Source: Thermoplasmata archaeon
GTDB taxonomy: Archaea > Thermoplasmatota > Thermoplasmata > Methanomassiliicoccales > Methanomethylophilaceae
DNA: 33,296 nucleotides
Assembly (NCBI GenBank): GCA_030539565.1
Contig: JAUNYA010000004.1
Span: 1 to 33,296, forward strand
Direction: 5' to 3'
In this document: one piece after another, positions 10,138 to 30,301 of the stretch
Layout: each line of letters opens with the position of its first letter
How positions within the stretch are numbered: the stretch's first letter is position 1
Notes under the pieces: model-generated
Seen by the model: the letters and a program-made list of their open reading frames with translations, nothing else
Database searches by the model: none
Told to the model about the DNA's origin: nothing
Made by a program: the position numbers and the translations under genes

Positions 10138-11763
10138 ATGTACGGTTCTGGAAACCAGCCCGTTATCGTGCTCAAAGAGGGCACCGAGAGGAGCAAAGAC
10201 AAGGAAGCTCAGTTCAACAACATCAGCGCCGCCAAGGCCGTCGCCGACGCGGTCAGGTCCACCCTCGGACCCAAGGGGATGGACAAGATGCTGGTCAACA
10301 CGATCGGCGACGTCGTCATCACCAACGACGGAGTCACCATCCTCAAGGAGATCGACGTCCAGCACCCCGCCGCCAAGATGGTCGTCGAGGTCGCCAAGAC
10401 CCAGGACGCCGAGTGCGGGGACGGGACCACCACCAGCGTCGTCCTCGCCGGAGAGCTGCTCAAGCAGTCCGAGGCCCTGATCGACGCCAACGTCCACCCC
10501 ACCGTCATCACCAACGGATTCAAGATGGCTGCTGACAAAGCAGTGGAGATCCTCAACGAGATCGCCATCGACGCCAAGAACGACAAGATCCTCAAGACCG
10601 TCGCCCACACCGCCCTCACCGGCAAGTCCGTCGGCGACGAGGAGGATGTCCTTGCCGACATCGTCGTCAAGGCCTGCAAGGCCGTCGAGGAGGACGGAAA
10701 GGTCGACACCAAGAACATCCGCGTCCAGAAGAAGGTCGGCGGGGTCATCGGCGACACCTACCTCGTGCAGGGAGTCGTCATCGACAAGGAGAAGGTCCAC
10801 TCCAGGATGCCCACCCACGTCGAGAAGGCCAAGATCGCCCTGTTCTCCTGCCCCCTCGAGGTCAAGAAGACCGAGTTCGACGCCCAGATCCAGATCACCG
10901 ACCCCACAATGATGTCCTCCTTCCTCGCCGAGGAGGAGAACACCATGAAGGCCATGGTCGACAAGATCAAGGCCGCCGGAGCCAACGTCGTCTTCTGCCA
11001 GAAGGGAGTCGACGAGCTGGTCCAGCACTACCTCGCCAAGAACGGCATCCTCGGATACAGGAGGCTCAAGGAGTCCGACCTCGAGGCCATCGCCAAGGCC
11101 ACCGGAGCCAACATCGTCGGAAACGTCATGGAGCTCACCAAGGCCGACCTCGGAACCGCCGGAGCGGTCGACGAGAAGCAGGTCGGAGAGGACGGAATGG
11201 CGTTCATCACCGGCTGCAAGAACCCCAAGGCCATCACCATCTTCGTGCGCGGCGGAACCGAGCACGTGCTCGAGGAGGTCGAGAGGGCCCTGAACGACGC
11301 CATCCGCGTGGTCGGCGTCGCCATCGAGGACGGGAAGGTCGTCGCCGGAGCCGGAGCCCCCGAGATCGAGCTCGAGCTCAGGCTGGACGACTTCGCCGCC
11401 TCCGTCGGAGGAAGGGAGCAGCTCGCCATCGAGAAGTTCGCCAAGGCCATGGAGATCATCCCCTGGACCCTCGCCGAGAACGCCGGTATCGACCCCATCG
11501 ACAGCATCATCAAGCTGAAGAACGCCCACGAGAAGAAGGCCGCCAAGGCCAAGTACTTCGGACTGGACCTCGACAGCGGCGAGGCAGTCGACATGCAGGC
11601 CAGGAACGTCCTCGAGCCCCTCAGGGTCAAGGTGCAGGCAATCAACTCCGCCCAGGAGGTCGCCAACATGATCCTCAGGATCGACGACGTCATCGCGTCC
11701 CGCAGGGCGCCCCCGATGCCTCCCCAGGGAGCCGGCGGAATGGGCGGAATGCCCGGGATGTGA
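10138..11763 (+). CDS. thsA: Thermosome subunit (group II chaperonin)
   Basis: Cytosolic ATP-dependent protein-folding chaperonin subunit, 541 aa, the usual length. Conserved ATPase motifs are in place: [10 protein letters not shown] (43-52), [10 protein letters not shown] (62-71) and [15 protein letters not shown] (94-108). The C-terminus is the characteristic flexible glycine-methionine tail GGMGGMPGM. The frame is open upstream into the radical SAM gene, but homology starts at [13 protein letters not shown], which has its own TATA box and Shine-Dalgarno site. Codon use is strongly biased to C-ending codons, as expected for a highly expressed gene. It is followed directly by a hairpin terminator. 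Only one subunit gene is present here; paralogues may lie elsewhere. Confidence 0.98.
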
Positions 11764-12330: not shown

Positions 12331-12360
12331 TAAGGCGGGATGGGTCCTCAGGCTGAGGAC
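12323..12360 (-). terminator. Tandem hairpins at the end of the hydrolase gene
   Basis: Two adjacent perfect stems: GTCCTCA-GGC-TGAGGAC (12344-12360), which includes the hydrolase stop codon, and CCCGCC-CGTAA-GGCGGG (12323-12339). No long T-tract follows, so termination is plausible but not certain. Confidence 0.4.
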
Positions 12361-13400
12361 AGCGAGTACGTGTACTTCGTGGCGAAGTCCATCACCAGGC
12401 ACAGCGTCATGGTGCCCTCGGTCTTGTTGTAGACGACGGACCACCTGGTCTGGTTGCTGGCGTTGTCCTGCTTAACGGTCTCCAGGAGGTCGAAGCACTC
12501 TGCGGTGTCCATGACCCCTTCGGAGGACTCCATGGCGGCCCCGACGGTGTCGTAGCGGCTCTGACTGCTCTCGGTGACCTCGATCACGCCCTGGAGGTCC
12601 GGGGACACGTAGTGGTTGGTCATGTATGACGTCTCGACTACGTAGTACTCGTTGTCGTAGATCTCGACCACGGCGGTCTTCCCGGAGGCGTCGCTGATCA
12701 TGATGTGGTAGTGCGCCATGCAGAGGTCGTAGTCCATCAGGAGCTCCAGGGCCTTGTCCGTGGAGTCGGCGTTGTCCAGGATCAGGCGCAGGGCGGTGGT
12801 GATGAAGATGGGGGTCCTCCCCTCGTGCGTCATGCTCGCGTACCCGGAGTTCTCGACCGCGTTGATGGAGACGCTCACTCCCTTCTCGTTGACGCCGTCC
12901 ATGGGCATGTACGCGACGGCACGCACCGCATCCTTGGCGGCGAGGGTCTCCGGGGTGTCGCCGGCGGTGTACCCGAACACGTTCAGGTTCACGATGGAGA
13001 GCGATTCGTACCCGTTCTCCGGATCGGTGTGAACGACCGCCGCCACGCTGCCGCTGAAATCCAGGTTCCTGGCGAGGAGCAGGTCCCCGTCCTCATCGCT
13101 CACTGCGAACGTGGAGCACGCGGTGCTCCCGGCGCCGCCGATCCCCGTCCCGTTGGTGACGTTCTCCTTCAGGTAGTTGTTCAGCTCGACCATGGTCGTG
13201 GAGCCCGTGGCGAGGTATCCGTCGAACTTGTAGTCGAAGTCCACGTCGATGTAGAACAGCTTCTGGTCGTCCGACCAGGTGACGGTGATGTCGTTACCCT
13301 CGCTTTCCTGCCCTCCGTTTAGCAGGACGGCCGCTGAGGCGGCCAGTATGACCACAACCACGGCGACGACCGCGATGCCCTTCTTGGTTGAGCTATTCAT
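12348..13400 (-). CDS. Membrane-anchored Ntn-type linear amide hydrolase (choloylglycine hydrolase / C45-C59-like)
   Basis: A 350-aa exported protein. KK then a hydrophobic stretch (about 8-28) forms a signal anchor, so the enzyme should face outside the cell. C95 in GSTACSTFAV is followed by DEDGDLLLARNLDF, the nucleophile and R-N-x-D signature of the penicillin acylase / bile salt hydrolase / acid ceramidase-like Ntn superfamily. Further matches are SINAVENSGY and NQTRWSVVYN. Because the nucleophile is internal, the protein probably cleaves itself before C95 to mature, as C45 and ceramidase-like members do. The substrate (bile salt, N-acyl amino acid, acyl-homoserine lactone or peptidoglycan-derived amide) cannot be told from sequence. 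It is convergent with the small membrane protein gene. Confidence 0.8.
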   Translation of the reverse strand: MNSSTKKGIAVVAVVVVILAASAAVLLNGGQESEGNDITVTWSDDQKLFYIDVDFDYKFDGYLATGSTTMVELNNYLKENVTNGTGIGGAGSTACSTFAVSDEDGDLLLARNLDFSGSVAAVVHTDPENGYESLSIVNLNVFGYTAGDTPETLAAKDAVRAVAYMPMDGVNEKGVSVSINAVENSGYASMTHEGRTPIFITTALRLILDNADSTDKALELLMDYDLCMAHYHIMISDASGKTAVVEIYDNEYYVVETSYMTNHYVSPDLQGVIEVTESSQSRYDTVGAAMESSEGVMDTAECFDLLETVKQDNASNQTRWSVVYNKTEGTMTLCLVMDFATKYTYSLSSA

Positions 13401-13563: not shown

Positions 13564-14337
13564 ATGCGTGCTGCGCTTTACGCCAGGGTCTCGACCGAGG
13601 ATCAGGCGGTGGAGGGATTCTCCCTCGACGCACAGATCAAGCGGCTGGAGGCCTACTGCAGGGTACGCGGCTGGGAGGTCGCGGACGAGTACAGGGACGA
13701 GGGTTTCTCCGGAAGGAACATCCGCCGTCCGGAGTACGAGAGGATGATGTCCGAGTCGGACAGGTGGGATGTGCTGCTTGTCCTGAAGATGGACCGTATC
13801 CACAGGAACAGTGTGAACTTCACCCATATGATGGACGAGCTCCGCGAGATGGGGAAGGAGTTCAACAGCGTCCAGGAGAAGTTCGACACGACGACGGCGA
13901 TGGGCCGCTTCGTCATGGACATCATGCAGAGGATTGCGCAGCTGGAGAGCGAGCAGATCGGCGAGAGGACCTACATGGGCATGGAGTTCAAGGCCCGCAA
14001 CGGCACCGGCCATCTCGGCTCGGGGCATCCCTACGGCTACGTCTACACAGACCGCGGTCTCGAGGTCGTGAAGGATGAGGCGCACACCGTCCGCGCGATC
14101 TACAACATGTACGTCCGCGGGTCCACCATGGAGGACATCGCCGGCTTCCTGAACGATGCCGACGTGCCGGCCAAGAAGGGCGGAAGGTGGAACAAGCAGT
14201 CGGTCTGCAACATCCTCCACAACCCGCTGTACGCCGGATACATGGACTGGAACGGCATCGTCCGCAGGGGCGAGCAGGAGCCCATCGTCGACGTCAAGGT
14301 CTACGAGAAGGTCAACGGCCCCGTAGAGCTCAGCTGA
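13564..14337 (+). CDS. Serine recombinase, short form (resolvase plus recombinase domain), copy 1
   Basis: DNA-cutting and rejoining enzyme of the serine recombinase superfamily. The N-terminal resolvase domain shows the catalytic serine S10 in YARVSTEDQ, the arginines of KMDRIHRN, and the dimer helix (RIAQLESEQIGERT). It is followed by the 'Recombinase' DNA-binding domain ending in NILHNPLYAGYMDWNGIV. At 257 aa it stops where large serine recombinases normally continue into a zinc ribbon and coiled coil, so it lacks the parts that control direction and synapsis. The open frame extends upstream to 13495, but homology starts at MRAALYARVST. The stop is 2 nt before copy 2, so the two are co-transcribed. 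Confidence 0.9.
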   Translation: MRAALYARVSTEDQAVEGFSLDAQIKRLEAYCRVRGWEVADEYRDEGFSGRNIRRPEYERMMSESDRWDVLLVLKMDRIHRNSVNFTHMMDELREMGKEFNSVQEKFDTTTAMGRFVMDIMQRIAQLESEQIGERTYMGMEFKARNGTGHLGSGHPYGYVYTDRGLEVVKDEAHTVRAIYNMYVRGSTMEDIAGFLNDADVPAKKGGRWNKQSVCNILHNPLYAGYMDWNGIVRRGEQEPIVDVKVYEKVNGPVELS

Positions 14338-14339
14338 CC

Positions 14340-15197
14340 ATGCGCGCGGCCATCTACGTCAGGGTCTCGACGGAGGAGCAGGCCGCTGAGGGTTATTCGA
14401 TAGAGGCCCAGAAGGAGATGCTGCAGGACTACTGCATCGTCGACGGCTGGGATGTGGCCGGCGTCTACGAGGACGACGGTTTCTCCGGGAGGAACGAGAA
14501 GCGTCCGGCGTACCGCCGCATGATGTCCGAGATGGACAGCTGGGATGTGGTAGTGGTCATCAAGATGGACCGTATCCACAGGAACAGCCGCAACTTCATG
14601 AACATGATGGAGCAGCTGGACCGCCACGGGAAGATGTTCGTCTCATCGTCCGAAGCGCTGGACACCACCAACGCGCTGGGCAGGTTCGTCGTGGACATGA
14701 TTCAGCGCCTTGCTCAACTTGAAAGCGAGCAGATCGGCGAGAGGACCCACATGGGCATGCGCGAGAAGGCCGAGACCCTCGACTCTGCGGAGACCGGCAA
14801 GCGCACTATGGGATTCACCCCGCCGTACGGATACTCCCTCGAGGACGGCGCCCTCGTGGAGGATCCGTTCGAGCTCTCCGTCGTCCGCAGGATGTTCGAG
14901 GAGTACGCCGAGGGCAGCACCATGGACCAGATCTGCTACAGGCTCAACGGCGAGGGGATCCTGACGAGGAAGGGCAACCCGTGGAACCGCAGGAACATGG
15001 GCAACATACTGCACAATCCCGTGTACGCGGGGTACATGCGCTGGGAGGACCTGCTCATAAGGCACGATGCCGGCACGGCGGTGACACCGAGGGAGTTCAA
15101 CTCCGTGCAGGAGAAGATGGCGTCGAGAGTGAAGGATCCATCCAGGCGCGAAGTGAAGCTGTTGCCAGTCGAGGACGACTTCGCGGCCGGATTCTGA
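14340..15197 (+). CDS. Serine recombinase, short form, copy 2
   Basis: A 285-aa paralogue of the preceding gene, highly similar across the catalytic domain (S10 in YVRVSTEEQ, DGFSGRN, KMDRIHRNSRNF, RLAQLESEQIGERTHMGM). Its DNA-binding half includes GFTPPYGYSLEDG and NILHNPVYAGYMRWEDLL and ends at FNSVQEKMASRVKDPS. Like copy 1 it lacks the zinc ribbon and coiled coil of large serine recombinases. The DNA-binding halves differ more than the catalytic halves, which would fit a heterodimer that recognises two different half-sites (inference). A dyad and a strong TATA box lie within 45 nt of its stop. Confidence 0.9.
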   Translation: MRAAIYVRVSTEEQAAEGYSIEAQKEMLQDYCIVDGWDVAGVYEDDGFSGRNEKRPAYRRMMSEMDSWDVVVVIKMDRIHRNSRNFMNMMEQLDRHGKMFVSSSEALDTTNALGRFVVDMIQRLAQLESEQIGERTHMGMREKAETLDSAETGKRTMGFTPPYGYSLEDGALVEDPFELSVVRRMFEEYAEGSTMDQICYRLNGEGILTRKGNPWNRRNMGNILHNPVYAGYMRWEDLLIRHDAGTAVTPREFNSVQEKMASRVKDPSRREVKLLPVEDDFAAGF

Positions 15198-17553: not shown

Positions 17554-18759
17554 GTGAGCAATGTAAATCGTCCTCGTTATGAGTCCAAGATCCGCCCGTT
17601 CATAGGGAACGGCAACATCAAGGGGATAACGGGAATCAGAAGGTGTGGAAAATCCACGATAATGAAGCTCGTCACCTCTGACATCCCCGGTTCCAATCTG
17701 ATCTATCTCAACATGGACCACAGGTCGAACTGGCCCTACAAGGACTCCGCTCTTCTGGACAAATACATCCACGATCACCTCGTCGAAGATGCACGCAATG
17801 TCCTGGTTATCGACGAGGTCCAGGATATCATAGGCTGGGAGGCTGAAATCAGATCTCTCGGCTTTGAGGAATGCTGCGACATCTACATCACAGGGTCCAA
17901 TGCGCATCTCCTTTCCGGCGAATACGGTACGCTGCTAAGCGGTAGGGTGAATCTGATCAACGCATTCACGCTGACATTCTCCGAGTGCCTCACATTCGAA
18001 CGCGAATACAAGAGCGAGCGCTCCGTAGAGGAGAGCCTGAACAGGTTCCTGCGTGTCGGTGGTTTCCCCAAGCTGTGGCGCTACGGGTATGATGAGGATG
18101 CCTGCCTCCAGGAGGTCCAGGATACGCTCGACATGGCCCTGAAGGTCGATGTCTTCTATCGCTTCAAGGTGACCGAACCCGATCTTTTGGAGCGCATCCT
18201 TGATTTCTTCTGCGACAACATCGGCAACCCCACCTCTGTGTTCAACATCTACAAGGCACTGAAGAAGAACGACCCCTCCACCAACAAGGATCTCGTGTAC
18301 TCCTATGTGCAGTATCTGGAGAGTGCTTGCCTCATCAACAAGGCGAAGGTCCTGGATCTGAAGGGTATGGTACACCTCGAGAAGGGATACAAGTACTTCC
18401 TTGCAGACATCGGGATAAAGAATGTGCGGATCGGGTTCAGACCCACAGACATCTCCGGTTATATGGAGAACATAGTCTATCTCGAACTCCGCAGTCGTGG
18501 ATACTCGGTCTCGATCGGTGACATCGACGGCAAGGAGATCGATCTCGTCGGCATCAAGTCAAATGAACGCGTCTACGTCCAGCTCACGGAGGAGCTCACC
18601 ACCTCGGATGTGGTCAACCGTGAGTTCGGCAATCTCGCTGCGATAGATGACAACTACCCGAAGTATGTCGTGACACTGAAGCGTGGAATGTTTGACAACG
18701 ACATGGATGGGATTCATTGCACCACGCTTTTGGAGTTCCTTCAAATGGAAAAGTTCTGA
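17554..18759 (+). CDS. AAA-type ATPase with DUF4143 C-terminal domain
   Basis: A 401-aa member of the widespread prokaryotic AAA_14/DUF4143 ATPases, whose physiological role is unknown. Walker A is GIRRCGKST (27-35, the typical GxRRxGKS form), Walker B is VLVIDEVQDI (83-92), sensor 1 is YITGSNAHLLS (111-121) and an arginine follows in LLSGR. The C-terminal part has a PD-(D/E)xK-like fold signature (ENIVYLELRSRGY, then GKEIDLVG and VYVQLTEEL), with glutamine replacing the usual E of ExK, as is common in this group. The start is GTG at 17554, about 27 nt after a TATA-like CATTAAATCC. Base and codon use are more AT-rich than in the neighbours, and the flanks carry repeats, suggesting horizontal acquisition. 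Confidence 0.9.
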   Translation: MSNVNRPRYESKIRPFIGNGNIKGITGIRRCGKSTIMKLVTSDIPGSNLIYLNMDHRSNWPYKDSALLDKYIHDHLVEDARNVLVIDEVQDIIGWEAEIRSLGFEECCDIYITGSNAHLLSGEYGTLLSGRVNLINAFTLTFSECLTFEREYKSERSVEESLNRFLRVGGFPKLWRYGYDEDACLQEVQDTLDMALKVDVFYRFKVTEPDLLERILDFFCDNIGNPTSVFNIYKALKKNDPSTNKDLVYSYVQYLESACLINKAKVLDLKGMVHLEKGYKYFLADIGIKNVRIGFRPTDISGYMENIVYLELRSRGYSVSIGDIDGKEIDLVGIKSNERVYVQLTEELTTSDVVNREFGNLAAIDDNYPKYVVTLKRGMFDNDMDGIHCTTLLEFLQMEKF

Positions 18760-18779
18760 TTCGTTATTAATTAAGTTGG

Positions 18780-18800
18780 TAAAGGTATTAGCTTAATTAT
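18780..18800 (+). repeat. AT-rich repeat copy 1
   Basis: TAAAGGTATTAGCTTAATTA followed by T, directly after the ATPase gene. It shares the core TAAAG...TAGCT...AATTA with copies at 19425, 19505 and, inverted, 19027. Confidence 0.6.
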
Positions 18801-19026
18801 TAATGTATTATTGAATTTTTACCTTCAATCCGTCGAAATCATTCCTCCTCTCTAGATAGATGGCGTTTTCATTCATATCTAGAATATCTGATAAAAATCA
18901 ATTAAGTAACGTATTCACATTAATTAATTATAAACAATCAAAACAAGTGGGAAGTTGTGAAAAAATGATGAAACGTCAGATACGTTGAATCTATCGAATC
19001 AAAACGATGATATTGAGTAAATGTAG

Positions 19027-19049
19027 AATTAATTAAGCTGATTACTTTA
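19027..19049 (-). repeat. AT-rich repeat, inverted copy
   Basis: On the minus strand TAAAGTAATCAGCTTAATTA followed by ATT; the inverse orientation of the copies at 19425 and 19505. With them it brackets the G+C-richer core of the region. Confidence 0.55.
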
Positions 19050-19424
19050 TTTGATTAATTAATTCAAGCATATGGAAATTATGCGGAATTATAGGCAACT
19101 ACCCCAGCAATTCTACAGATCCTGAAAACTGATGAAAAAACGTCGATTTTGCCCCGGATCCTATCATTTTCGAGGGCCCAGAAACGGGGTCGTTTTCGGA
19201 CCCGCTTTTGTGCACGTTTACCCTACCCTTTTTGCTCATTTTCCGGGATCCCAAGGTCACATTCGGGAGGCCGTCGTGGACAAAAGAGTGCCCAAAAATC
19301 GATGAAAAATGCGATTTCACCCTGGAATTCAACAAATTTCTGAAATTATCAAAAATCGGGTATAAAACGGCATTTTTCCCTCAAATTTCATAAAATCAAT
19401 ATGGCTTCAAATTATTTAATGAAG

Positions 19425-19447
19425 TAAAGCAATTAGCTATAATTATT
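19425..19447 (+). repeat. AT-rich repeat copy 2
   Basis: TAAAGCAATTAGCTATAATT followed by ATT; nearly identical to copy 3 for the first 16 nt. Confidence 0.6.
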
Positions 19448-19504
19448 AAGCTTCTCCAATTGCCATATTTGCAACGAGTGTAGATATTTAATTAATTTAC
19501 TAAG

Positions 19505-19526
19505 TAAAGCAACTAGCTTAATTAAT
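19505..19526 (+). repeat. AT-rich repeat copy 3
   Basis: TAAAGCAACTAGCTTAATTA followed by AT, 80 nt after copy 2 and about 40 nt before the stop of the coiled-coil gene. Confidence 0.6.
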
Positions 19527-19568
19527 ATCAGATAATGAAAAAAGTTGGAAAAAGTTTAGGGAAACGGG

Positions 19569-20675
19569 TCAATCCACGATCTCGTCCCTCATGTACATCA
19601 TCATGCCCTGCAGACTGTTGACGACGCGGGAGTAGGAGTACTCGAGGGAGGCCTCGTCCTCGGTGAGGGAGTGGACGTACTCGTCCTGGTGCTTCGGATC
19701 CTCGGAATCCTTGACGGCTTCGATGATCCTCTTGAATCCGGCGACGACGCTCGCCTTGACGGTGAAGTCGATCCCGAGCAGCGCGTCGCATATCGCAACG
19801 TCGGTCTTGAGGAACCCGACGATGTCGTCGCAGACGTCCACGTCGATCTCGCCCTTCTCGTAGGCCTCGAGGGTCTCGTCGATCTTCGAGTCCTTCATCG
19901 CCTTGACCCTGCGGATCGTGTCGATGCTCTCGTTGCTCAGGAACTTGCCCTTGTACGAATCATCCCCTGCAGCCGGAGCCTCGGCGACGGGCTCCTCCTT
20001 CTTTGCTTCGGGCTCCGGAGCCTTCTTTGCGGACTGCATCTCCTCGAACGCGGGCTCGAGGACGGAGAGCTTCTGCTCGGCGAGGTTCAGGTCGATGCGG
20101 AGGGACGCGTTCTTCGACTTGAGATCGTCCACCTGGGCGATGAGCATCCTGCGCTCGTCCCTGAGCTCCTTCAGCTCCTCCTCCAGGGTGGCGGCCTCGT
20201 TGCGCGCATACTCGAGATCCTGTGAGAGCTGCTCGACGCGCCTCCTGCATCCGGAGAGCTCGTCCTTCACGGCCTGCAGCGCCTCGGAGGCCTCGGCGGA
20301 CCTGCCGTCGTCGGCGCGGATGGATTCCACCGCCTCCATGAGTAGGCGGCGGACGTAGTCGCCGATGTCGGCCTCCTCGGAGGTCTCGGACTCGGAGGGG
20401 GAGGACTTGAGGGAGTTGAACGACTCCTCGTCGGCGCGCTCGGTGTCGGACAGCCTCGAGTTGTACAGCGCCGAGTCTATGGAATCTAGCTCTATCTCCG
20501 CCGCGCCCTCCGTGTCCAGGAGGATGTCGCAGGCGTCGATGTCGTCCCCGAGGGAGACTATGATGTCGATGTACTCGTCTAGGTTCGCACGGTCGATCTT
20601 GGCGAGCGAGGCGAATACCATGATCTCGTTGAGCTTCCTGTCCCTGACCCTGGCTACGGTGTCCGCGTCCCACAT
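19569..20675 (-). CDS. Coiled-coil protein with C-terminal domain shared with the next gene, unknown function
   Basis: A 368-aa soluble protein. Residues 1-90 are helical and acidic, about 105-215 form a long coiled coil (ELSGCRRRVEQLSQDLEYAR, EEELKELRDERRMLIAQVDD), 216-240 is an Ala/Glu/Pro/Lys linker, and 241-368 is a compact domain with TDVAICDALL (291-300), KHQDEYVHSLTEDEAS and a helical end. That domain recurs alone in the protein at 20768-21196. No known family was recognised. The start ATG at 20675 lies about 28 nt below a TATA-like element (GTTTTTATTA on the minus strand, near 20697-20708), so a leaderless start is likely; longer open frame upstream is unrelated DNA. Confidence 0.75.
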   Translation of the reverse strand: MWDADTVARVRDRKLNEIMVFASLAKIDRANLDEYIDIIVSLGDDIDACDILLDTEGAAEIELDSIDSALYNSRLSDTERADEESFNSLKSSPSESETSEEADIGDYVRRLLMEAVESIRADDGRSAEASEALQAVKDELSGCRRRVEQLSQDLEYARNEAATLEEELKELRDERRMLIAQVDDLKSKNASLRIDLNLAEQKLSVLEPAFEEMQSAKKAPEPEAKKEEPVAEAPAAGDDSYKGKFLSNESIDTIRRVKAMKDSKIDETLEAYEKGEIDVDVCDDIVGFLKTDVAICDALLGIDFTVKASVVAGFKRIIEAVKDSEDPKHQDEYVHSLTEDEASLEYSYSRVVNSLQGMMMYMRDEIVD

Positions 20676-20767
20676 GCGGGGGTCATGAGAATCCAGCGTA
20701 ATAAAAACAAGGGAAATGGTTTCAAGAGGTTTAGAGGAATAGAAACCATGAGTGCAGACCGTGGCGA

Positions 20768-21196
20768 TTACGCGGCGCACCTCATCCTGGCCTGGAGGGC
20801 CTCGATAACCTTGGCGTAGAACAGCTCCATGGACGCCTCGTTGTCGGTGAGGCTCCTGGTGTAGTCCTCCTGGTGGCTGGGCTGCGGGGACGCGCTCACC
20901 ACGGATTTGATGATCTTCATGGCATGGTCCACGCTCGCCTCGTTCCCGAAGTCCGTGTTGATCAGGGTGTCGCAGATGGCGACGTCGGTCATCAGCGCGC
21001 CTGTGACGCCGTTGCACACCTCGGCGTCGATGGCTCCGGCGGCCGTGGCCTCCTGGAATGCGCGGATCTTCCCCTGTTTCATGTCCCTGATCCCCTGGAG
21101 GATGTCACGGCGGTCGTTGGACAGGTACTCCCCATCGGGGATGACCTCTAGCTCGGACCTCGTGAATGACTGTGCGGTGTCGATTTCGCTCATCAT
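20768..21196 (-). CDS. Single-domain paralogue of the coiled-coil protein's C-terminus, unknown function
   Basis: A 142-aa protein corresponding almost entirely to residues 241-368 of the preceding protein: GEYLSNDRRD versus GKFLSNESID, MTDVAICDTLI versus KTDVAICDALL, HQEDYTRSLTDNEASME versus HQDEYVHSLTEDEASLE. The conserved TDVAICD and SLTxxEAS blocks suggest a shared fold and perhaps partner. The start is either of two adjacent ATGs (21196 or 21193), about 26 nt below a TATA-like TTGAAATAC on the minus strand. A 92-nt gap with another promoter separates it from the coiled-coil gene. No known family was recognised. Confidence 0.72.
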   Translation of the reverse strand: MMSEIDTAQSFTRSELEVIPDGEYLSNDRRDILQGIRDMKQGKIRAFQEATAAGAIDAEVCNGVTGALMTDVAICDTLINTDFGNEASVDHAMKIIKSVVSASPQPSHQEDYTRSLTDNEASMELFYAKVIEALQARMRCAA

Positions 21197-21332
21197 GCAA
21201 GAAATCCGGTCCTGCGTATTTCAATGGGAACGGAGATTGGATGCAAATATGGAGTATACTTCCAACTAACATCAAATTACTTACCTTGACATCTGGATAA
21301 GCGGAGCGGGATTCAGCGAACCTGCGATTCCA

Positions 21333-22121
21333 TTAAATATCAGATGGCGGGCATCGCTCCGGATGGTCGGAAACAGTGGCCATCTCGGGGAATCTGGAGT
21401 TGATAATGCACCGCGCGTACATCGCCGAGACGTACTGCCCGGTGTTCTGGCGGAAGGATTCCAGGATGAGCCTCTCCCTCTGGTCGAGGACGTCCATAAA
21501 GAGCGCGTCGAAGTCGGACTCGTCCACACGGTCGAGCTCGGCGACGGCGGCGGAGATCTCCTCGCTGGTGACCGCCTTGAGCGAGTGTATCCGGAGGAGG
21601 ATCGAGCACTCGACCATTACCGCGCCCATGTAGAGCAGGCTGTTCCCGACGACGTCCGGGTCCTGCCCTATCGTCCGGACGGAGCAGATGTTCATGATGG
21701 ACCTGATCGCGATGAGGAGCCTGTCGTCCGCGTCGGTGAGACCGCAGTCCCTCGAATCCGCGAGACGGGCGGCCATCTTCAGAAGTGGCATGTGGCGCAT
21801 CAGCTCGCCGGTCATCCAGACGAACTGCGCCTCATCCTCGCTGTCCCTCTCGCTCAGCGACGAGAAGTACTCGTTCATCAGGTCCGGGGGCATGAAGGCC
21901 AGGTTGTCCTCCAGGATCGGGATCTGCCTGTCCAGGTCGCCGACATCATTGCCCCCTATGGAGGACATCATCCTGGCGCGGGCTATCTGGCGCACGAGGC
22001 TGTCCACCTTCAGTTTGCGGCGCGTCTCGTCGAGCGTGGGGTCGAAGGTGACCATTGCGGTCTCGTATCCCTTCCGGATGACGATCCGGTTCAGGACGGG
22101 GATGTCCTCCTCGTTGAATAT
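21333..22121 (-). CDS. Unknown 240-262 aa helical protein; start codon unclear, possibly ATA
   Basis: The first ATG (22055) gives 240 aa beginning MVTFDPTLDETRRKL. The frame stays open upstream and reads FNEEDIPVLNRIVIRKGYET, protein-like sequence, back to an ATA codon at 22121. A TATA-like TAATTAT (about 22140-22147) lies 25 nt before that ATA, the leaderless spacing seen for the neighbouring genes, and no ATG, GTG or TTG exists between. So the true start may be ATA, or a start codon lost by mutation. The protein is helical and acidic without membrane segments, and no domain was recognised. It ends in TAA at 21333, and a 136-nt gap precedes the next gene. Confidence 0.65.
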   Translation of the reverse strand: MFNEEDIPVLNRIVIRKGYETAMVTFDPTLDETRRKLKVDSLVRQIARARMMSSIGGNDVGDLDRQIPILEDNLAFMPPDLMNEYFSSLSERDSEDEAQFVWMTGELMRHMPLLKMAARLADSRDCGLTDADDRLLIAIRSIMNICSVRTIGQDPDVVGNSLLYMGAVMVECSILLRIHSLKAVTSEEISAAVAELDRVDESDFDALFMDVLDQRERLILESFRQNTGQYVSAMYARCIINSRFPEMATVSDHPERCPPSDI

Positions 22122-22160
22122 CGTGCTTTTTCCTCCAGCATAATTAGTTTAGCTGGTAGC

Positions 22161-22793
22161 TTAATCAGATTGATTATTCTCAGATGACGAATTGACACCC
22201 GAGATGTTCTCCTCGATGATGCGGTCGAGCTTCCTCGAGACCGCGATGGCGAAGCGGAGGCAGTCCTCCTTCGAGTCCTCCACGCGCTGCGACGGACCGC
22301 GGATCACATAGGGCAGGAATCTGACGTTGGGCCTGGCTGAGTCCAGCTCCAGGGAGATCTTGTCGATGTCCTTGCTGGCCTTCTTTATGTATTCGTCGGT
22401 GGTGACCTTGAACAGCGCCCTCTGCCCGTTGACCGAGTTGAACGCCAGGGGCGTGTCGTCCACCACGATGCGGTACCCTGCGATCTCCGAGTACGCGAGT
22501 ACGGGGATGCAGAAGCTGGGCCAGGGCCCCTTGAAGAAGAGGCGGTGCGTGTCATCGAACCTGAGGTCGGCGAACGCCACCGTCTCGGTGAACGCGGCGA
22601 TCCTCTCCAGGAGCTCGGCGTCGGCGACGTGAAGCGACTGCACCTCGTCGGCGGAGGGGTTGTCGAAGGACGCATTTACCGGAACGCAGTAGCGGCAGAC
22701 GTATCCGCCGTTGATCTTGGCCACGCCCTCCCTCTGACCGCACACGAGGCAGGTCTTGTCGGCGGGCTCGTCCCTCTTCTTCCTGAAGAACAT
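22161..22793 (-). CDS. Zinc-ribbon protein of unknown function
   Basis: A 210-aa protein with a basic N-terminus (MFFRKKRDE) and a four-cysteine zinc ribbon, C15, C18, C33, C36 (CLVC and CRYC, separated by GQREGVAKINGGYV). The rest is mixed alpha/beta: an aromatic beta-rich middle (RLFFKGPWPSFCIPVLAYSE, residues about 83-102, then GYRIVVDDTPLAFNSVNGQ) and an acidic C-terminal helix ending in a Ser/Asn-rich tail. The ribbon resembles those at the N-terminus of DUF4428-type proteins, but the middle was not recognised. TATA-like GAAATAAC lies upstream on the minus strand. The neighbours are unknown proteins on the same strand. Confidence 0.72.
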   Translation of the reverse strand: MFFRKKRDEPADKTCLVCGQREGVAKINGGYVCRYCVPVNASFDNPSADEVQSLHVADAELLERIAAFTETVAFADLRFDDTHRLFFKGPWPSFCIPVLAYSEIAGYRIVVDDTPLAFNSVNGQRALFKVTTDEYIKKASKDIDKISLELDSARPNVRFLPYVIRGPSQRVEDSKEDCLRFAIAVSRKLDRIIEENISGVNSSSENNQSD

Positions 22794-22836
22794 GGACTTC
22801 GCATCGCACGCTGTTATTTCAACTGCTCGAATAGCG

Positions 22837-24597
22837 TCACGGATGCTTCGGATAGGAGATCTTGAAGCTGTTGCCCTCGATCGACACGCCGGGGCCGTGC
22901 TCCACGCTGAGGTTCTCCTCGTCGGAGTACCCGATCGTGTCGATCCCGTCCAGGACGACGTCGGTCTCCAGCAGGTACTGGAGCACCCCGCACACGAAGC
23001 GCATGACCTTCTCCGGCGGCGCGTCCGCGTTCAGCACCTCGATCTCGTCCCTGCCGAAGGCCTCCAGACCCTGGGTGTAGGAGCTTATCCCGCCCTCGGG
23101 CGTGCTGTACAGCCCCACCCAGATCCAGCAGCCGACGGGGAGCTCGCCGGACTTCATCCTCATGGCCTCGGCCAGGTACATCTCCGGCGAGAGGACCGTT
23201 CCCTGGAAGTACACGCCTATGGCGTTCCCCAGGCTACACGCGGCCGCCACGAGCTTCGCGTGCATCAGCGCCGCGTCCACCGGCGATCCGGAGTGGTTGA
23301 CCAGAGCCACCATCAGGTGGGCCCTGTGGCGGGAGACCTCCTCCACGCCCTCGGGCCAGAGGAAGTTGTTCGCGGCGTTCTCCTCCGCCTCGCCGTCGGG
23401 GACCGGGTGGCGGACGAGGCTGTACGCCGCGAGGTGCCCGTCGCACTCGAAGACCAGGCTGTCGTCACCGTCGGGCTCGGGGGTCTTTATGCCCCAGTCG
23501 GACTGCAGGGCGGCCCTGACCAGCTCGAGGTCGGCGGACGGGTCGGAGAGGAGGACGATGGCGATGAACGGACCGCCCATGGTGTCCTGCCTCATCACCC
23601 TGAGCTCCTCGTCGAAGGAGACGATCACGGGGCTGTCGTCCTCGAAACCGCCGAAGCTCAGCGTGGGCCTCAGGCGCCTGTCCACCATGACGCCGTAGAG
23701 CGGGCGGGTGGCCGCACGCTCGCCGAGGACCTCTCTGGCCTCCTTCTCCATCTCCGGGATCGAGTCGATTATCCTGCGCAGGTCGTCGGCGGGCATCTTG
23801 GAGATGAACGCCTCGTTCATTGCGAAAGTCACCATGACCTGCCCGGACGGGGTGTCCAGCATGTATGTGCAGTACGGGTGGTCCGGTATCCAGCCCGTGG
23901 GGGAGAGCGCCTCCTTGACCTCAGCCAGGCCCTCGGGGTCCACGGCCATGCCCATCACGGCCTCCGCCCTGAGGGAAGGTTCGCCGTCCTCGTACCAGAA
24001 CGCTTCGTGCACGTCGTCGCCGAGGGTGTCGTCGCGCTCGTCGCCTATGAAGTGGAACTCCATCTCCTCCAGAGAGCGGCCCGCAGATATGTCATCCAGG
24101 AGCCTGTTGAACTCCGCGTCGTCCGGCACGATCTGCAGGCCCCTCATGGCCGCGGCGATGGCGCCCTCGCGGTCCCCGAAGTGGGCTCTCAGACGGCCGA
24201 GCGTGAGCCAGCACCAGGGGTAGTCCGGGTCCTCGTCCACGCCCCTGGAGAGGTACTCCATGGCGAGGCGGGGCTTCCCGATGTAGAGGAGGGCGTTGGC
24301 GTAGCGGTAGTACCATACCCCGCATCCGGATGCGGAGCGCTCCACTCTGGAAAGCCACTCGACGGCGGTGAGGTAGTGCTCGTAGTCGTCGATGTTGTTG
24401 CACGCGTAACCGATCCACAGCGCTATGTCGAGGTCCTCGTGGGCCTGCTTCTCGGTGAACCTTCCCTCGGCTATGCCCTCGGATATTGTGCGTCCGATGG
24501 ATTCCAGCATCGCGTGGAAGTTCCCAGCGTCGCCCTCCATGTAGGACTCGAACCCCTCAATGTCCTGCGGGCGCAGCAGCCCCGACTCTCCGCTCAT
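22837..24597 (-). CDS. TPR protein with DUF4261 C-terminal domain
   Basis: A 586-aa soluble protein in three parts. Residues about 50-170 are TPR-like helical repeats (HYLTAVEWLSRVERSASGCG, then RYANALLYIGKPRLAMEYLS and WLTLGRLRAHFGDREGAIAA). About 180-340 is an uncharacterised acidic alpha/beta region. About 345-586 is DUF4261-like, recognisable by AIGVYFQGTVLSPEMYLAEA, IWVGLYSTPEGGISSYTQGL, EAFGRDEIEVLNAD and DTIGYSDEENLSVEHGPGVS. DUF4261 has no established biochemical function. A TATA-like CTTTTAACC on the minus strand about 25 nt before the ATG gives a leaderless start. It is the largest member of the unknown cluster and the only one carrying a named domain family. Confidence 0.85.
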   Translation of the reverse strand: MSGESGLLRPQDIEGFESYMEGDAGNFHAMLESIGRTISEGIAEGRFTEKQAHEDLDIALWIGYACNNIDDYEHYLTAVEWLSRVERSASGCGVWYYRYANALLYIGKPRLAMEYLSRGVDEDPDYPWCWLTLGRLRAHFGDREGAIAAAMRGLQIVPDDAEFNRLLDDISAGRSLEEMEFHFIGDERDDTLGDDVHEAFWYEDGEPSLRAEAVMGMAVDPEGLAEVKEALSPTGWIPDHPYCTYMLDTPSGQVMVTFAMNEAFISKMPADDLRRIIDSIPEMEKEAREVLGERAATRPLYGVMVDRRLRPTLSFGGFEDDSPVIVSFDEELRVMRQDTMGGPFIAIVLLSDPSADLELVRAALQSDWGIKTPEPDGDDSLVFECDGHLAAYSLVRHPVPDGEAEENAANNFLWPEGVEEVSRHRAHLMVALVNHSGSPVDAALMHAKLVAAACSLGNAIGVYFQGTVLSPEMYLAEAMRMKSGELPVGCWIWVGLYSTPEGGISSYTQGLEAFGRDEIEVLNADAPPEKVMRFVCGVLQYLLETDVVLDGIDTIGYSDEENLSVEHGPGVSIEGNSFKISYPKHP

Positions 24598-24648
24598 GGG
24601 GGGTGTATGGCGGTATGGTTAAAAGCGATTGCGCACCGGATGGCGGAT

Positions 24649-25581
24649 TCAGCGCTCCATGTCGGACCTGAAATTGGAGCCGTCGGGCCCGTGGACCTCG
24701 ATGTCGACCTCCCCGGCGTACTCCCCGACGCCGATCTCCATGGCGCGGATCAGGTGCTTCTCCGCCTCCTCCACGCGCCCGAGCTTCATCAGGGCGCCGG
24801 CGAGGTCGTGGTGCAGCGATATGAGCGGGTCCTTGTCGGGGAGGCCGTGCATCTCCAGCATGCCCTCCAGGATCTGGACCGCCACGGTGAGGTCGGTCAC
24901 GCCGAGCTCCTCGAGCCCGATGTCGGCTTCGGCGCCGGCGCGCATGACCAGGGCCATGACGAGGGACTCGGGGTCCTCCAGGGTCCCGTTCTCGATCAGG
25001 CGGGACCCGGTCTCCACGGCCTCGGTGTACCAGCGGATGCACTCCTTGGGATCGTTCAGCGAGTCCGCGGCCTCGGCAGCCAGGCACTGGAGGTCCATCC
25101 TGCGGTTCTCCGACCAGGGATCGCCGCCGGATGCGGCAGAAAGCCCCCGGTCCAGGAACGGCCCGCAGTCCTCGGAGTGCTCCGAATCGATGAGGTTCTC
25201 GCAGGCCGCGATGCACATCCTGACGATGGAGCGCCTGTCGAAGTGGAGGGAGGTGTCCCTGAGCTCCGCCACCCTCTCGGCGGCGACGGCGTACTCCTCC
25301 ACGGGGTCCCCGCCCTGGTCGAACTGCAGGGATGCCAGGGTGGTGTAGATCTTGACGAACGTACCGGCGTCCACCGCGTCCTCCCCGAGGGACGACGCGA
25401 TCTCCGCGGCGGACTCCAGGTCCTCCATGGCGGACGTGCGGTACTCCATCATGGCGAGGACCGAGCCGCGGTTGACGTACGCCTCCATGAGCTCGGAGGG
25501 GTCCCCTCCGTTCTCCAGCGCGTAGACCCTGTCGTTCAGCTCCTGCAGCGTCGCCTCCAGGTGGGTGTCGGCTCTCTCCAT
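24649..25581 (-). CDS. TPR-type helical repeat protein, unknown partner
   Basis: A 310-aa, strongly acidic, all-helical protein with tetratricopeptide-like repeats (AYVNRGSVLAMMEYRTSAME, then KIYTTLASLQFDQGG, ALVMRAGAEADIGLEELGVT and LHHDLAGALMKLGRVEEAEK). Such proteins are protein-interaction scaffolds. The open frame continues upstream past the promoter, but the ATG at 25581 lies about 28 nt below a TATA box (ATTATACG on the minus strand, near 25606-25613), favouring the leaderless start used here. It is divergent from the pyridoxal kinase gene, with a 97-nt shared promoter region, and lies upstream of the DUF4261 protein in the same orientation. Confidence 0.8.
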   Translation of the reverse strand: MERADTHLEATLQELNDRVYALENGGDPSELMEAYVNRGSVLAMMEYRTSAMEDLESAAEIASSLGEDAVDAGTFVKIYTTLASLQFDQGGDPVEEYAVAAERVAELRDTSLHFDRRSIVRMCIAACENLIDSEHSEDCGPFLDRGLSAASGGDPWSENRRMDLQCLAAEAADSLNDPKECIRWYTEAVETGSRLIENGTLEDPESLVMALVMRAGAEADIGLEELGVTDLTVAVQILEGMLEMHGLPDKDPLISLHHDLAGALMKLGRVEEAEKHLIRAMEIGVGEYAGEVDIEVHGPDGSNFRSDMER

Positions 25582-27025: not shown

Positions 27026-27030
27026 GCCAG

Positions 27031-28716
27031 ATGTTCATACCCACCACGAAGGAGGAGATGTCCCGTCTCGGGTGGGACTCCCTCGACATTGTGCTCGTAT
27101 CGGGCGACACATACTCCGACAACTCGTACAACGGGTCCGCGCTTGTGGGGCACTGGCTGATCGACCACGGCTTCCGCGTGGGCATCATCGCGCAGCCGGA
27201 TGTGAACTCCGGGGACGACATCACCCGCCTGGGCCAGCCGGAGCTCTTCTGGTCCGTGTCCGCGGGATGCGTGGACTCGATGGTGGCCAACTACACGCCC
27301 ACCAGGAAGTTCCGCAAGGACGACGACTTCACGCCGGGCGGGGTCAACGACCGCCGTCCGGACAGGGCCTGCATCGCGTACACCAACCTGATCAAGAAGC
27401 ACTCCAAGGGGAAGCCCATCATCCTGGGCGGGATAGAGGCCAGCCTCAGGCGCATAGCGCACTACGACTTCTGGTCCGACTCGGTCCGCAGATCCATTCT
27501 ATTCGATTCCAAGGCGGACGCCCTCGTCTACGGCATGGGGGAGCTCTCCAACCTCGAGATCGCCCAGCGCATGCGCGACGGGAGGGACTGGAGGGGGGTC
27601 CGCGGGATATGCTGGATCTCCTCGCAGAAGCCGGAGGGCTGCGTCGAGATCCCCTCGTACGAGGAGGTCAGCCGCAGGGACGAGCGCCGGAGGTTCATGA
27701 AGGCCTTCTCGATCTTCCGCCACAACTGCGACCCCGTGACCGCTAAGCCCCTGTGTCAGAAGCACGGCGACAGGTGGCTGGTGCAGAACAGACCGCAGAG
27801 GTGCATGACGCAGGATGAGCTCGACGCCGCGTACGAGTCGTCCTTCGAGAACGCCGTCCACCCGTACTACGCGAAGCAGGGGAAGGTCAAGGCAATGGAG
27901 ACAGTGAGGAACTCGGTCACGACGCACCGCGGCTGCTACGGGGACTGCTCCTTCTGCGCCATTTCCGCCCACCAGGGCACGACCGTCGTCTCGAGGTCCG
28001 AGGCATCGGTCGTGCGCGAGGTGACCCGCATGGCCGCCGCGAAGGGCTTCAACGGGACGATACAGGACGTCGGTGGACCGACGGCGAACATGTACGGCAT
28101 CGAATGCTCGAAGAAGGCAGCCAAGGGCCGCTGCGAGGACAGGAGGTGCCTCGTCGGGCAGCCCTGCCCGAGGATGCCCATGGACCACTCAGCTCAGATA
28201 CATCTCCTCAACTCGATCTCAGAGATTGACGGCGTACGCAAGGTGTTCGTGAACTCGGGCATCCGCCACGACATGATCGTGGCGGACCGCGCCCACGGGA
28301 GGGAGTACCTGGACCTCCTCGTGACGAAGCACGTCTCCGGCCAGATGAAGATCGCCCCGGAGCACGTGTGCGACAACGTCCTCCAGCTGATGGGCAAGCC
28401 CGGTAGGGACGTCCTGGTCCGCTTCAAGGGCATGTTCGACGCCAGCTGCAGGGAGCGCGGCAAGGACGAGTACCTCACATACTACTTCATCGCCGCCCAC
28501 CCGGGATGCACGGACGCCGAGATGAAGGAGCTGTCGGAGTTCTGCAGGGGCACCCTGGGGATCTGTCCGGAGCAGGTTCAGGTGTTCACGCCCACGCCCT
28601 TGACCTACTCCACCGCCATGTGGTGGTGCGGATGCGACGAGAAGGGCCGTTCCGTCAGGATAGAGCGCTCCATCCAGGGGCGCCAGAGGCAGAAGGACGC
28701 TGTCGTCGGGAGGAGG
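27031..28716 (+). CDS. ygiQ: YgiQ-type radical SAM protein (UPF0313), 3' end irregular
   Basis: A radical SAM protein of the YgiQ family, function unknown, with an N-terminal cobalamin-binding-like region (DIVLVSGDTYSDNSYNGSAL, KPIILGGIEASLRRIAHYDF) and the cluster motif CX3CX2C at C302, C306, C309 (HRGCYGDCSFCAI). Further family blocks are TIQDVGGPTANMYG, CPRMPMDHS, HVSGQMKIAPEHV, YYFIAAHPGCTDAEM and VQVFTPTPLTYSTAMWW. Family similarity fades near GRQRQKDAVVGRR at about 28715, but no stop occurs in this frame until 29910, through the whole next gene. The end given here is where family sequence ends, not a seen stop. A one-base shift would reach a TGA at 28743-28745. A frame error or a lost stop is likely. 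Confidence 0.85.
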
Positions 28717-28717
28717 G

Positions 28718-29404
28718 ATGGACGCCGCGCTCACCGATCTGCTGACCGACCGCTGCTCCCGCTACGTGGACAGGGTCGAGGCCTCGTTCGTGCCGAAGAA
28801 GGACTTCTACTACGCCTGGTCCGCCAGGAACGGCGTCGCCACGGTGCAGATGTCCGACTACCTGGAGGGCGCTCCCGACGAGGTGCTCGCCGACTTCGGC
28901 GAGATGGTGGTCCGCAGGGCCCTCCGCCTGAAGTGGGAGGAGCCCCAGTCGTTCCTCGACTTCGTCCGCTCCGACTACTTCGTCGTGTCCAGGAGGCCCG
29001 TTTTCATCCGCAGGAGCAGGAACCTCATGAGGACCGACCGGGGGGAGCACCGCTTCCTCCCGGACTCGGTGGACAGGCTCATGTACGCCGGCCTCCTAAC
29101 CGCGGACGACATAACCAACTCGTGGTTCTCCTGGACCCGCAGGGACAACCTGAGGCGCCTGGGCTTCTGCGGTACGATGTTCCGCGTCGTCGGCGTGTCG
29201 TCGGTCCTCGACTCCCCGGACATCCCGGACGAGATGGTCGACTTCGTGGTGTACCACGAGTGCCTCCACCTCCGCCAGGGCTACCGCCCCTCCTCCAGGG
29301 TGCACGACTCGCAGTTCCGCGCATGGGAGCGCCGTTTCCCCGATTCCAGGGCCGTCGAGGAGCGCCTCAGGGAGCTGGGCGGCATCCGACGGCAACTATT
29401 CTAA
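28718..29404 (+). CDS. SprT/YgjP-like zinc metallopeptidase-type protein
   Basis: A 228-aa protein with a gluzincin active site, H180-E181-C182-L183-H184 (VYHECLHL), and a third probable zinc ligand at H196 in VHDSQFRAWERRFPD. This pattern of HExxH followed by H and a W/F-rich helix resembles the SprT-like and YgjP/WLM-type metal hydrolases. The N-terminal part (residues 1-150) is not recognised; it includes a basic stretch RRPVFIRRSRN. Substrate unknown. The ATG is preceded by GGGAGGAGGG, a good ribosome site that lies at the end of ygiQ, so the two are translationally close. The codon pattern shows this frame, not the overlapping ygiQ frame, is the coding one here. Confidence 0.75.
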   Translation: MDAALTDLLTDRCSRYVDRVEASFVPKKDFYYAWSARNGVATVQMSDYLEGAPDEVLADFGEMVVRRALRLKWEEPQSFLDFVRSDYFVVSRRPVFIRRSRNLMRTDRGEHRFLPDSVDRLMYAGLLTADDITNSWFSWTRRDNLRRLGFCGTMFRVVGVSSVLDSPDIPDEMVDFVVYHECLHLRQGYRPSSRVHDSQFRAWERRFPDSRAVEERLRELGGIRRQLF

Positions 29405-29407
29405 CGG

Positions 29408-30301
29408 ATGCCGTCATGCGGTGGCATGGACGAGCAGCAGGGTTTCCTCTTCCAGGGGACCGACGGCGAGGCGGAGTACGACATCGACCAGGTCCGCGAG
29501 ATGGCGGCCAGGGACGAGCCGGATGGAGTGTACGCGCTCGCGATGGCGTACCTCTTCGGATGGGACGTGGAGGCCGACGAGGACCGCGGGTACGAGCTGC
29601 TCGAGAAGGCGGTGGACCTGGGGCAGACCGACGCCATGGCGCTGATGGTCCGCCTCTACATGCAGAGCGAGTACGACGGCATCGACAACGACCGCGCCGC
29701 CGAGCTCGCTATCACCGCCTCCAAGGACGGGATCCCGGAGGCCCAGCTGTACGCCGGTCTGGCGTACATGGACGGAGTGTCCGTCCAGCAGGACTACGCC
29801 GAGGCGGCGAGGCTCTTCTCGCTCGCGGCGAACCAGGGAGACCAGGAGGCCAGGACCACGCTCGGCTACCTCTACGAGAACGGCCTCGGCGTACCGAAGG
29901 ACGAGGCTAAGGCGTTCAAGATGTACAGGACCGCCGCACGCGGTGGATCCGTGAACGCCATGTTCCATGCGGGAGTGTGCCTCGAGTTCGGCACCGGGAC
30001 GCCCGTGGATATCCCGAAAGCACGCGAGTGGTACCTGCGCGGGGCCCAGATGGGCGACGCGTTCGCCATGGAGCGCCTGGGCCACCTGATGATGGAGGAC
30101 AGCCCCGGGGAGGGCTTCGAGTGGTTCCTGAAGGCGGCCATGGAAGGTGTCGCCACGGCAATGGGCACCGTCGGGTTCTGCTACCTCGGAGGGACCGGTG
30201 TCGAACAGGATTCCGAAGAGGCCAGGAAGTGGCTGAGGATGGCCGCGGACAACGGCATAGAGGAGGCCTCGGAGGCACTCCTCGACCTGGAGAATCAGTG
30301 A
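29408..30301 (+). CDS. Sel1-like repeat (SLR) protein
   Basis: A 297-aa soluble protein made of about 36-residue Sel1-type helical hairpins: AQLYAGLAYMDGVSVQQDYA, then TTLGYLYENGLGVPKDEAKA, AMFHAGVCLEFGTGTPVDIP, AMERLGHLMMEDSPGEGFEW and MGTVGFCYLGGTGVEQDSEE, with earlier weaker copies near residues 40-110. SLR proteins act as scaffolds and adaptors; the partner is unknown. The first ATG (29408) is 3 nt after the previous stop; a second in-frame ATG (29426, MDEQQGF) is an equally good start. It closes the kinase-ygiQ-peptidase run and is followed by a hairpin shared with the convergent ABC gene. Confidence 0.85.
   Translation: MPSCGGMDEQQGFLFQGTDGEAEYDIDQVREMAARDEPDGVYALAMAYLFGWDVEADEDRGYELLEKAVDLGQTDAMALMVRLYMQSEYDGIDNDRAAELAITASKDGIPEAQLYAGLAYMDGVSVQQDYAEAARLFSLAANQGDQEARTTLGYLYENGLGVPKDEAKAFKMYRTAARGGSVNAMFHAGVCLEFGTGTPVDIPKAREWYLRGAQMGDAFAMERLGHLMMEDSPGEGFEWFLKAAMEGVATAMGTVGFCYLGGTGVEQDSEEARKWLRMAADNGIEEASEALLDLENQ

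Follow-up and report, generated by a model that had tools for sequence, protein, structure and literature searches.

A family-restricted helical domain and a conserved 35-bp iteron array at one locus of Ca. Methanomethylophilaceae

The window, by which we mean the whole stretch of 33,296 nucleotides analyzed here, corresponds to contig C105 in a metagenome assembly of 1.4 Mb. Six consecutive genes lie on its minus strand, and all six open reading frames of the original prediction are present and coding. The first, g1 (19569-20675, 368 aa), comprises a copy of a helical domain (aa 1-90), a coiled coil and a second domain copy (aa ~246-368). g2 (20768-21196, 142 aa) is a single domain copy, recognized by our merged domain profile A6 with E 6.8e-37, and g3 (21333-~22124) combines a copy in its N-terminal half with a helical C-terminal half. 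They are followed by genes for a zinc-ribbon protein with a CxxC...CxxC motif (g4, 22161-22793), a TPR and DUF4261 protein (g5, 22837-24597) and a TPR protein of family F2 (g6, 24649-25581), the last of which is divergent from a PdxK-family gene, a pairing seen in other genera too. Pfam matches are confined to TPR and DUF4261 (PF14080; E 2.5e-15, 56.7 bits against a gathering cut-off of 27) in g5 and to TPR in g6; g1-g4 have no Pfam match above the curated cut-off. Compared with the closest relative G004 all six genes are under purifying constraint, with approximate dN/dS values of 0.28 (g1), 0.25 (g2), 0.58 (g3), 0.29 (g4), 0.55 (g5) and 0.37 (g6).

A TATA-like element had been proposed before each start. 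AT-rich boxes are indeed found at about -27 to -32 before g1, g2, g3 and g4, with A or T at 7-8 of 8 positions, a level that 5% of random positions reach, whereas the boxes of g5 (CTTTTAA) and g6 (ATTATA) are weaker. At the g3 start codon position the window has ACG where the G004 orthologue has ATG. The g3 frame is open upstream to 22148, and use of the ATG at 22055 would remove the beginning of the conserved domain. Either the ACG is used as a near-cognate start or the metagenome consensus is in error at that site. Elsewhere in the window, a YgiQ-like radical SAM frame (27030-29910) continues through the following two genes with no stop codon and may contain a frameshift near its end. A protein of the choloylglycine hydrolase/acyltransferase family (12348-13400), which has a hydrophobic segment at its N-terminus, may be a gut adaptation. 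The thermosome gene (10138-11763, compared with L160 3-1280) is 97% identical to that of G004 with a dS of 0.06, while nearby genes show dS 0.4-0.8, pointing to recent exchange or strong codon constraint.

The proposed paralogy between g2 and the g1 C-terminus is supported by 43% identity, but the proposal had missed that the domain is common to g1, g2 and g3. Profile comparisons indicate that a single helical domain recurs at both ends of g1, in g2 and in the N-terminal half of g3: the g1 N-terminus aligns with the g1 C-terminus/g2 (96%, E 1.6e-9) and with the N-terminal half of g3 (91%, E 1e-6; 94%, E 1e-7 in a further hhalign comparison), compared with ~0-2% for unrelated neighboring genes. 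The domain is also carried by F9, a 130-aa gene directly before g3 in ~15 genomes. Moreover, A6 recovered F22, a family that was absent from its building set, which provides independent support for the unity of the domain. By this search 13 genomes of the genus carry F22, that of the window among them (G000:C150). Each of four other genera in the archaeal family has F22 as a single copy, and an F22 profile built from those genera aligns by hhalign with the g1 N-terminus (85%), the g1 C-terminus (94%), the N-terminal half of g3 (95%) and F9 (93.5%), with controls below 1%; column-shuffled profiles gave nothing comparable. A search of 400 Thermoplasmata genomes revealed no copy of the domain beyond this family. 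Together with the single-copy state of F22 in those genera, this makes F22 probably the ancestral form and g1, g2, g3 and F9 copies that arose later. In the window's genus the domain has expanded to ~5 copies, mostly side by side, and K14, Y71 and E83 (g1 numbering) are invariant among the paralogues, with L42 nearly so. Family-wide, F22 is paired with F7, which encodes a serine protease of trypsin type whose His/Asp/Ser motifs are conserved, and the pair adjoins Sel1-repeat genes (L202-L217).

The shared domain is absent from Pfam, NCBIfam and PDB, and Foldseek searches of PDB with the g1 and g3 models gave no match at E <= 0.001. The AlphaFold2 model of g3 is all-helical (pLDDT 88, pTM 0.83). 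That of g1 displays two helical heads on a long connecting helix (pLDDT 81.5), with a pTM of 0.37 that leaves the placement of the heads relative to each other uncertain. The connecting linker is almost absent in some species and ~500 residues long in another (L187), so it is the heads that are conserved. The domain proteins are all acidic, with median pI values of 4.4-4.9, and thus not obvious DNA binders. Two candidate relationships were rejected. A PDB profile search returned Protein A repeats as sums only, with no single stretch passing alone, and a second domain repeat in the C-terminal half of g3, suggested by the model, finds no support in sequence (3%). We also observed recurrent in-frame TAG codons in g3 orthologues of one clade (L122, L125, L173, L174, L175 and L176, from G009, G013, G024, G007, G019 and G030, respectively). 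They fall at two homologous sites, one following 'RC.AM' and the other preceding 'LP.DLY', and are probably pyrrolysine sites in a non-methyltransferase protein; further such candidates have been predicted in Ca. M. alvus (PMC4153887).

The relatives we compared are Ca. Methanomethylophilaceae and related Thermoplasmata, several of animal-gut origin, and gene counts were taken over 31 genomes of the genus (~30 species besides the window's), 17 of them near-complete. Both g1 and g6 occur in 27 of the 31, including 17/17 and 16/17 of the near-complete genomes, respectively. g3 is present in 21, full-length g5 in eight that all belong to one clade, and g4 in three. The order g1-g2-g3-g4-g5-g6 is retained in G004 only. 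At least three of the six genes are nonetheless neighbors in eight genomes, in partly rearranged order: g6, g5, g3 and g1 lie within ~10-20 kb, with insertions and one inversion, the block being divided between two contigs in G023 and g3 and g1 being fused in one reading frame in G021. These eight genomes form a single clade in the g6 tree, which indicates that the gene association was inherited and not repeatedly assembled. The idea that the six genes make up one system does not hold, as g6 is an older neighbor at the family level, g5 is clade-limited and g4 is rare; these three are neighbors rather than core parts. Paralogues of g5 (F32; L163, L162, L144, L157 and L167) are multidomain proteins of 1.2-1.5 kaa with TPR/DUF4261-like parts and in some genomes adjoin genes with ankyrin repeats. 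Outside the archaeal family, a long AT-rich stretch of L153 (G064, another family of the order) holds a copy of the C-terminal half of g5 with 41% identity, a possible case of transfer.

The cluster had been placed in a typical accessory setting, next to an AAA/DUF4143 ATPase. This gene (AAA_14/DUF4143; 17554-18759, plus strand) lies between the array described below and the recombinases on its far side, is not conserved, is missing at that place in G004 and is probably a local insertion. It matches PADLOC PDC-S01 with 386 bits. Together with the scaffold-type repeats and DUF4261, this neighbor would fit an uncharacterized defense or conflict cluster, but the PADLOC matches of g1-g6 are of coiled-coil type or marginal only and the locus has no viral relatives. 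The near-universal presence of g1 and g6 in near-complete genomes does not suit an accessory region and makes a defense role very unlikely.

Beside g1 the original prediction had noted repeat-rich AT DNA. The AT-rich block is there (18641-19700) and its position is conserved in the family; what had escaped notice is that it holds a conserved array of 35-bp iterons, with a further copy in the g3 promoter. The window has five array iterons, at 18766-18800 (minus strand, 37.6 bits), 18893-18927 (minus, 29.0 bits), 19029-19063 (plus, 44.7 bits), 19411-19445 (minus, 33.6 bits) and 19491-19525 (minus, 38.6 bits), the last two being 80 bp apart. Across the window's genus and others, an iterated matrix search with dinucleotide-shuffled controls found 156 copies in 30 of 31 loci, where ~1 would be expected by chance. 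Arrays contain 4-8 copies in irregular orientation, often spaced by 70, 80 or 91 bp, and the iteron core AAG-N7-CTT is a dyad. Two serine recombinases flank the array on one side and g1/g3/F9 on the other. F22 and the protease F7 take the place of g1/g3/F9 in other genera, which have the array without F9, g3 or g1; in genomes of the TAG clade g1 is located elsewhere, away from the array. In 800 kb sampled from G030, strong iteron matches occur only at the array and the F9 promoter, with one weak match elsewhere. TAG-clade loci L172, L174, L175 and L176 also have iterons, often two overlapping, between g6 (F2) and the helicase-like F6. A viral or mobile origin of the locus was considered and rejected: no viral contig carried the iteron or relatives of g1 or F9, and Rfam gave no match.

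The additional copy (22144-22178, plus strand, 36.2 bits) is a single, operator-like iteron before g3 that overlaps the last 18 nt of g4. It still scores 29.9 bits when the matrix is built solely from other genera. A census at >=20 bits over 1.18 Mb of loci counted 128 copies in arrays and 31 elsewhere. Of the latter, 13 are centered 18-28 bp before the F9 start, mostly at exactly 28 bp, and another two lie before g3 in the window and in G004, which lack F9 at that place. Distance and orientation are nearly fixed relative to the lead gene of the F9-g3 operon. A matrix trained on the arrays of other genera alone found the site in 15 of 22 F9/g3 lead promoters versus 1 of 717 others, and that single match is the same F9-g3 site viewed from the divergent gene. 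As the training arrays come from genera without the F9-g3 operon, the link between operon and array is free of circularity. A location over the TATA region would suggest repression.

The iterons could be mere transcription-factor operators, with lineage-specific genes gathered at a permissive terminus region and the domain proteins having an unrelated role in the cytosol, for example as F7/Sel1/TPR adaptors. The proximity of F22 to F7 (0-2 genes away in most loci of other genera), the retention of the His-Asp-Ser motif regions by F7 and a Sel1-F22 fusion in G029 are consistent with this explanation, which we nevertheless consider unlikely: 4-8 clustered copies, nearly all outside promoters, in 30/31 loci and several genera exceed what an operator would require.

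In five of six complete genomes the array lies 47.7-49.7% of the chromosome away from orc1. For contigs starting at orc1 the values are 48.9% (G007), 47.7% (G014), 48.8% (G051) and 48.4% (G101), and the G030 array (1,352.6-1,353.4 kb) is 4 kb from the point opposite orc1. The exception is G033 with 31%. The naive probability of five in six being so close is ~1e-6, a figure to be read with the relatedness of the six genomes, which are not independent. In G030 the GC skew, measured by sampling, is lowest at 504-546 kb, with a range reached by 0 of 2000 shuffles, and orc1 is found at 525 kb, which places the origin at orc1 in this one genome. The ORB boxes flanking orc1 there resemble those described for the order (PMC4153887). 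Around the array the skew is flat, so the terminus reading rests on position; a sharp terminus skew is likewise missing in Thermococcales according to Cortez et al. (PMC2958812). AT-rich iterons resemble origins in general and members of the order have two orc1/cdc6 genes (PMC4153887), so a second or dormant replication origin might be envisaged. This seems most improbable, since the G030 skew minimum is at orc1 and not at the array, ORB boxes were found at orc1 and none at the array, and the array is opposite orc1; the cdc6.1 and cdc6.2 genes of Ca. M. alvus are separated by ~695 kb on a genome of 1.667 Mb and are not antipodal (PMC4153887).

The recombinases near the array, F8a (13564-14337) and F8b (14340-15197), are encoded in tandem on the plus strand and both contain Resolvase and Recombinase domains. 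In 12 loci of the genera labeled g1, g4 and g12 (genus labels, not genes) the pair lies within reach of the array, at a distance of 0.7-8 kb, and one further locus has a single F8 member at its edge. We identified no iteron-binding protein; among known families, the serine recombinases are the strongest candidates to bind a dyad site. If F8 binds the iteron, the leading rival to the reading we favor would be a multi-subsite res-like site at which F8a/F8b resolve chromosome dimers, with F8 also binding the F9-g3 promoter and the domain genes being regulated neighbors. The dyad core, the conserved F8 pair and the terminus position of the array would all suit such a role. Set against it, the F8 promoters had no iteron, six loci with >3 kb of sequence on the recombinase side had no F8, and 4-8 irregularly oriented sites exceed a three-subsite res. 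We regard dimer resolution of this kind as unlikely, albeit a serious contender.

The array, the operator and the domain family are established at the level of sequence; that the same protein occupies array and promoter, and that the encoded proteins function at the array, we infer. Our preferred reading, held tentatively and with somewhat less than even confidence, is that the operon shares its regulation with the conserved iteron array near the terminus and probably acts there, in a partition-like or recombinase-associated manner. One DNA-binding factor would recognize both the array and the F9-g3 promoter, and operon output would track occupancy of the array, much like that of autoregulated partition operons. 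The acidic helical proteins would assemble with that factor at the terminus, where g1, a rod of variable length with a head at each end, would link complexes to one another. Their role would lie in handling the terminus: nucleoid organization, segregation or dimer resolution. A more far-reaching version, possible but on the doubtful side, is an undescribed archaeal terminus system in which the array opposite the origin and F22-type proteins form a nucleoprotein complex, the expanded operon of this genus is autoregulated through the iteron and sister chromosomes are organized or separated. Borrel et al. state that the histones found in other Euryarchaeota are missing from Methanomassiliicoccales, whose DNA-packaging proteins are elusive (PMC4153887). 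We found nothing in the literature on the end of replication or chromosome separation in this order, which appear little studied. The novelty of domain and element follows from the lack of a known homologue and from membership tests that placed them in no known family, rather than from function. With a compact, conserved, sequence-defined element almost opposite the origin and a defined operon, the terminus question becomes directly testable, and the domain family (g1, g2, g3, F9, F22) gives a name to genes that many methanogens of gut and rumen carry.

Autoregulated partition operons (ParMRC, TubZRC, SegAB) have an iteron array beside the operon and the same site in the promoter. The present locus is similar in having an array beside an operon whose operator is the same site. 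It differs in that no NTPase or known centromere-binding family was recognized: Pfam and NCBIfam revealed no NTPase among g1-g6 or F9, and no ParA/SegA-like NTPase lies beside the domain proteins, so we do not class the locus as a partition operon despite its layout. Unlike partition systems, moreover, the array is chromosomal, opposite the origin and present without the F9-g3 operon in other genera. The DUF4261 and TPR of g5 and the TPR of g6 are uninformative on the domain shared by g1-g3. MatP/matS and Tus/Ter likewise tie repeated sites to the terminus; those sites are dispersed, whereas the present array is compact and local, and no MatP or Tus homologue was recognized. Archaeal XerA/dif pairs one 28-bp dif with a tyrosine recombinase near the terminus (PMC2958812). 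The concept of a terminus-proximal recombination site is shared, with a terminus not sharply resolved by skew, but here serine recombinases accompany several 35-bp sites. Finally, archaeal ORB elements (PMC4153887) and the putative iterons are both repeated protein-binding boxes; they are unrelated in sequence, and ORBs lie at orc1 whereas the iterons do not.
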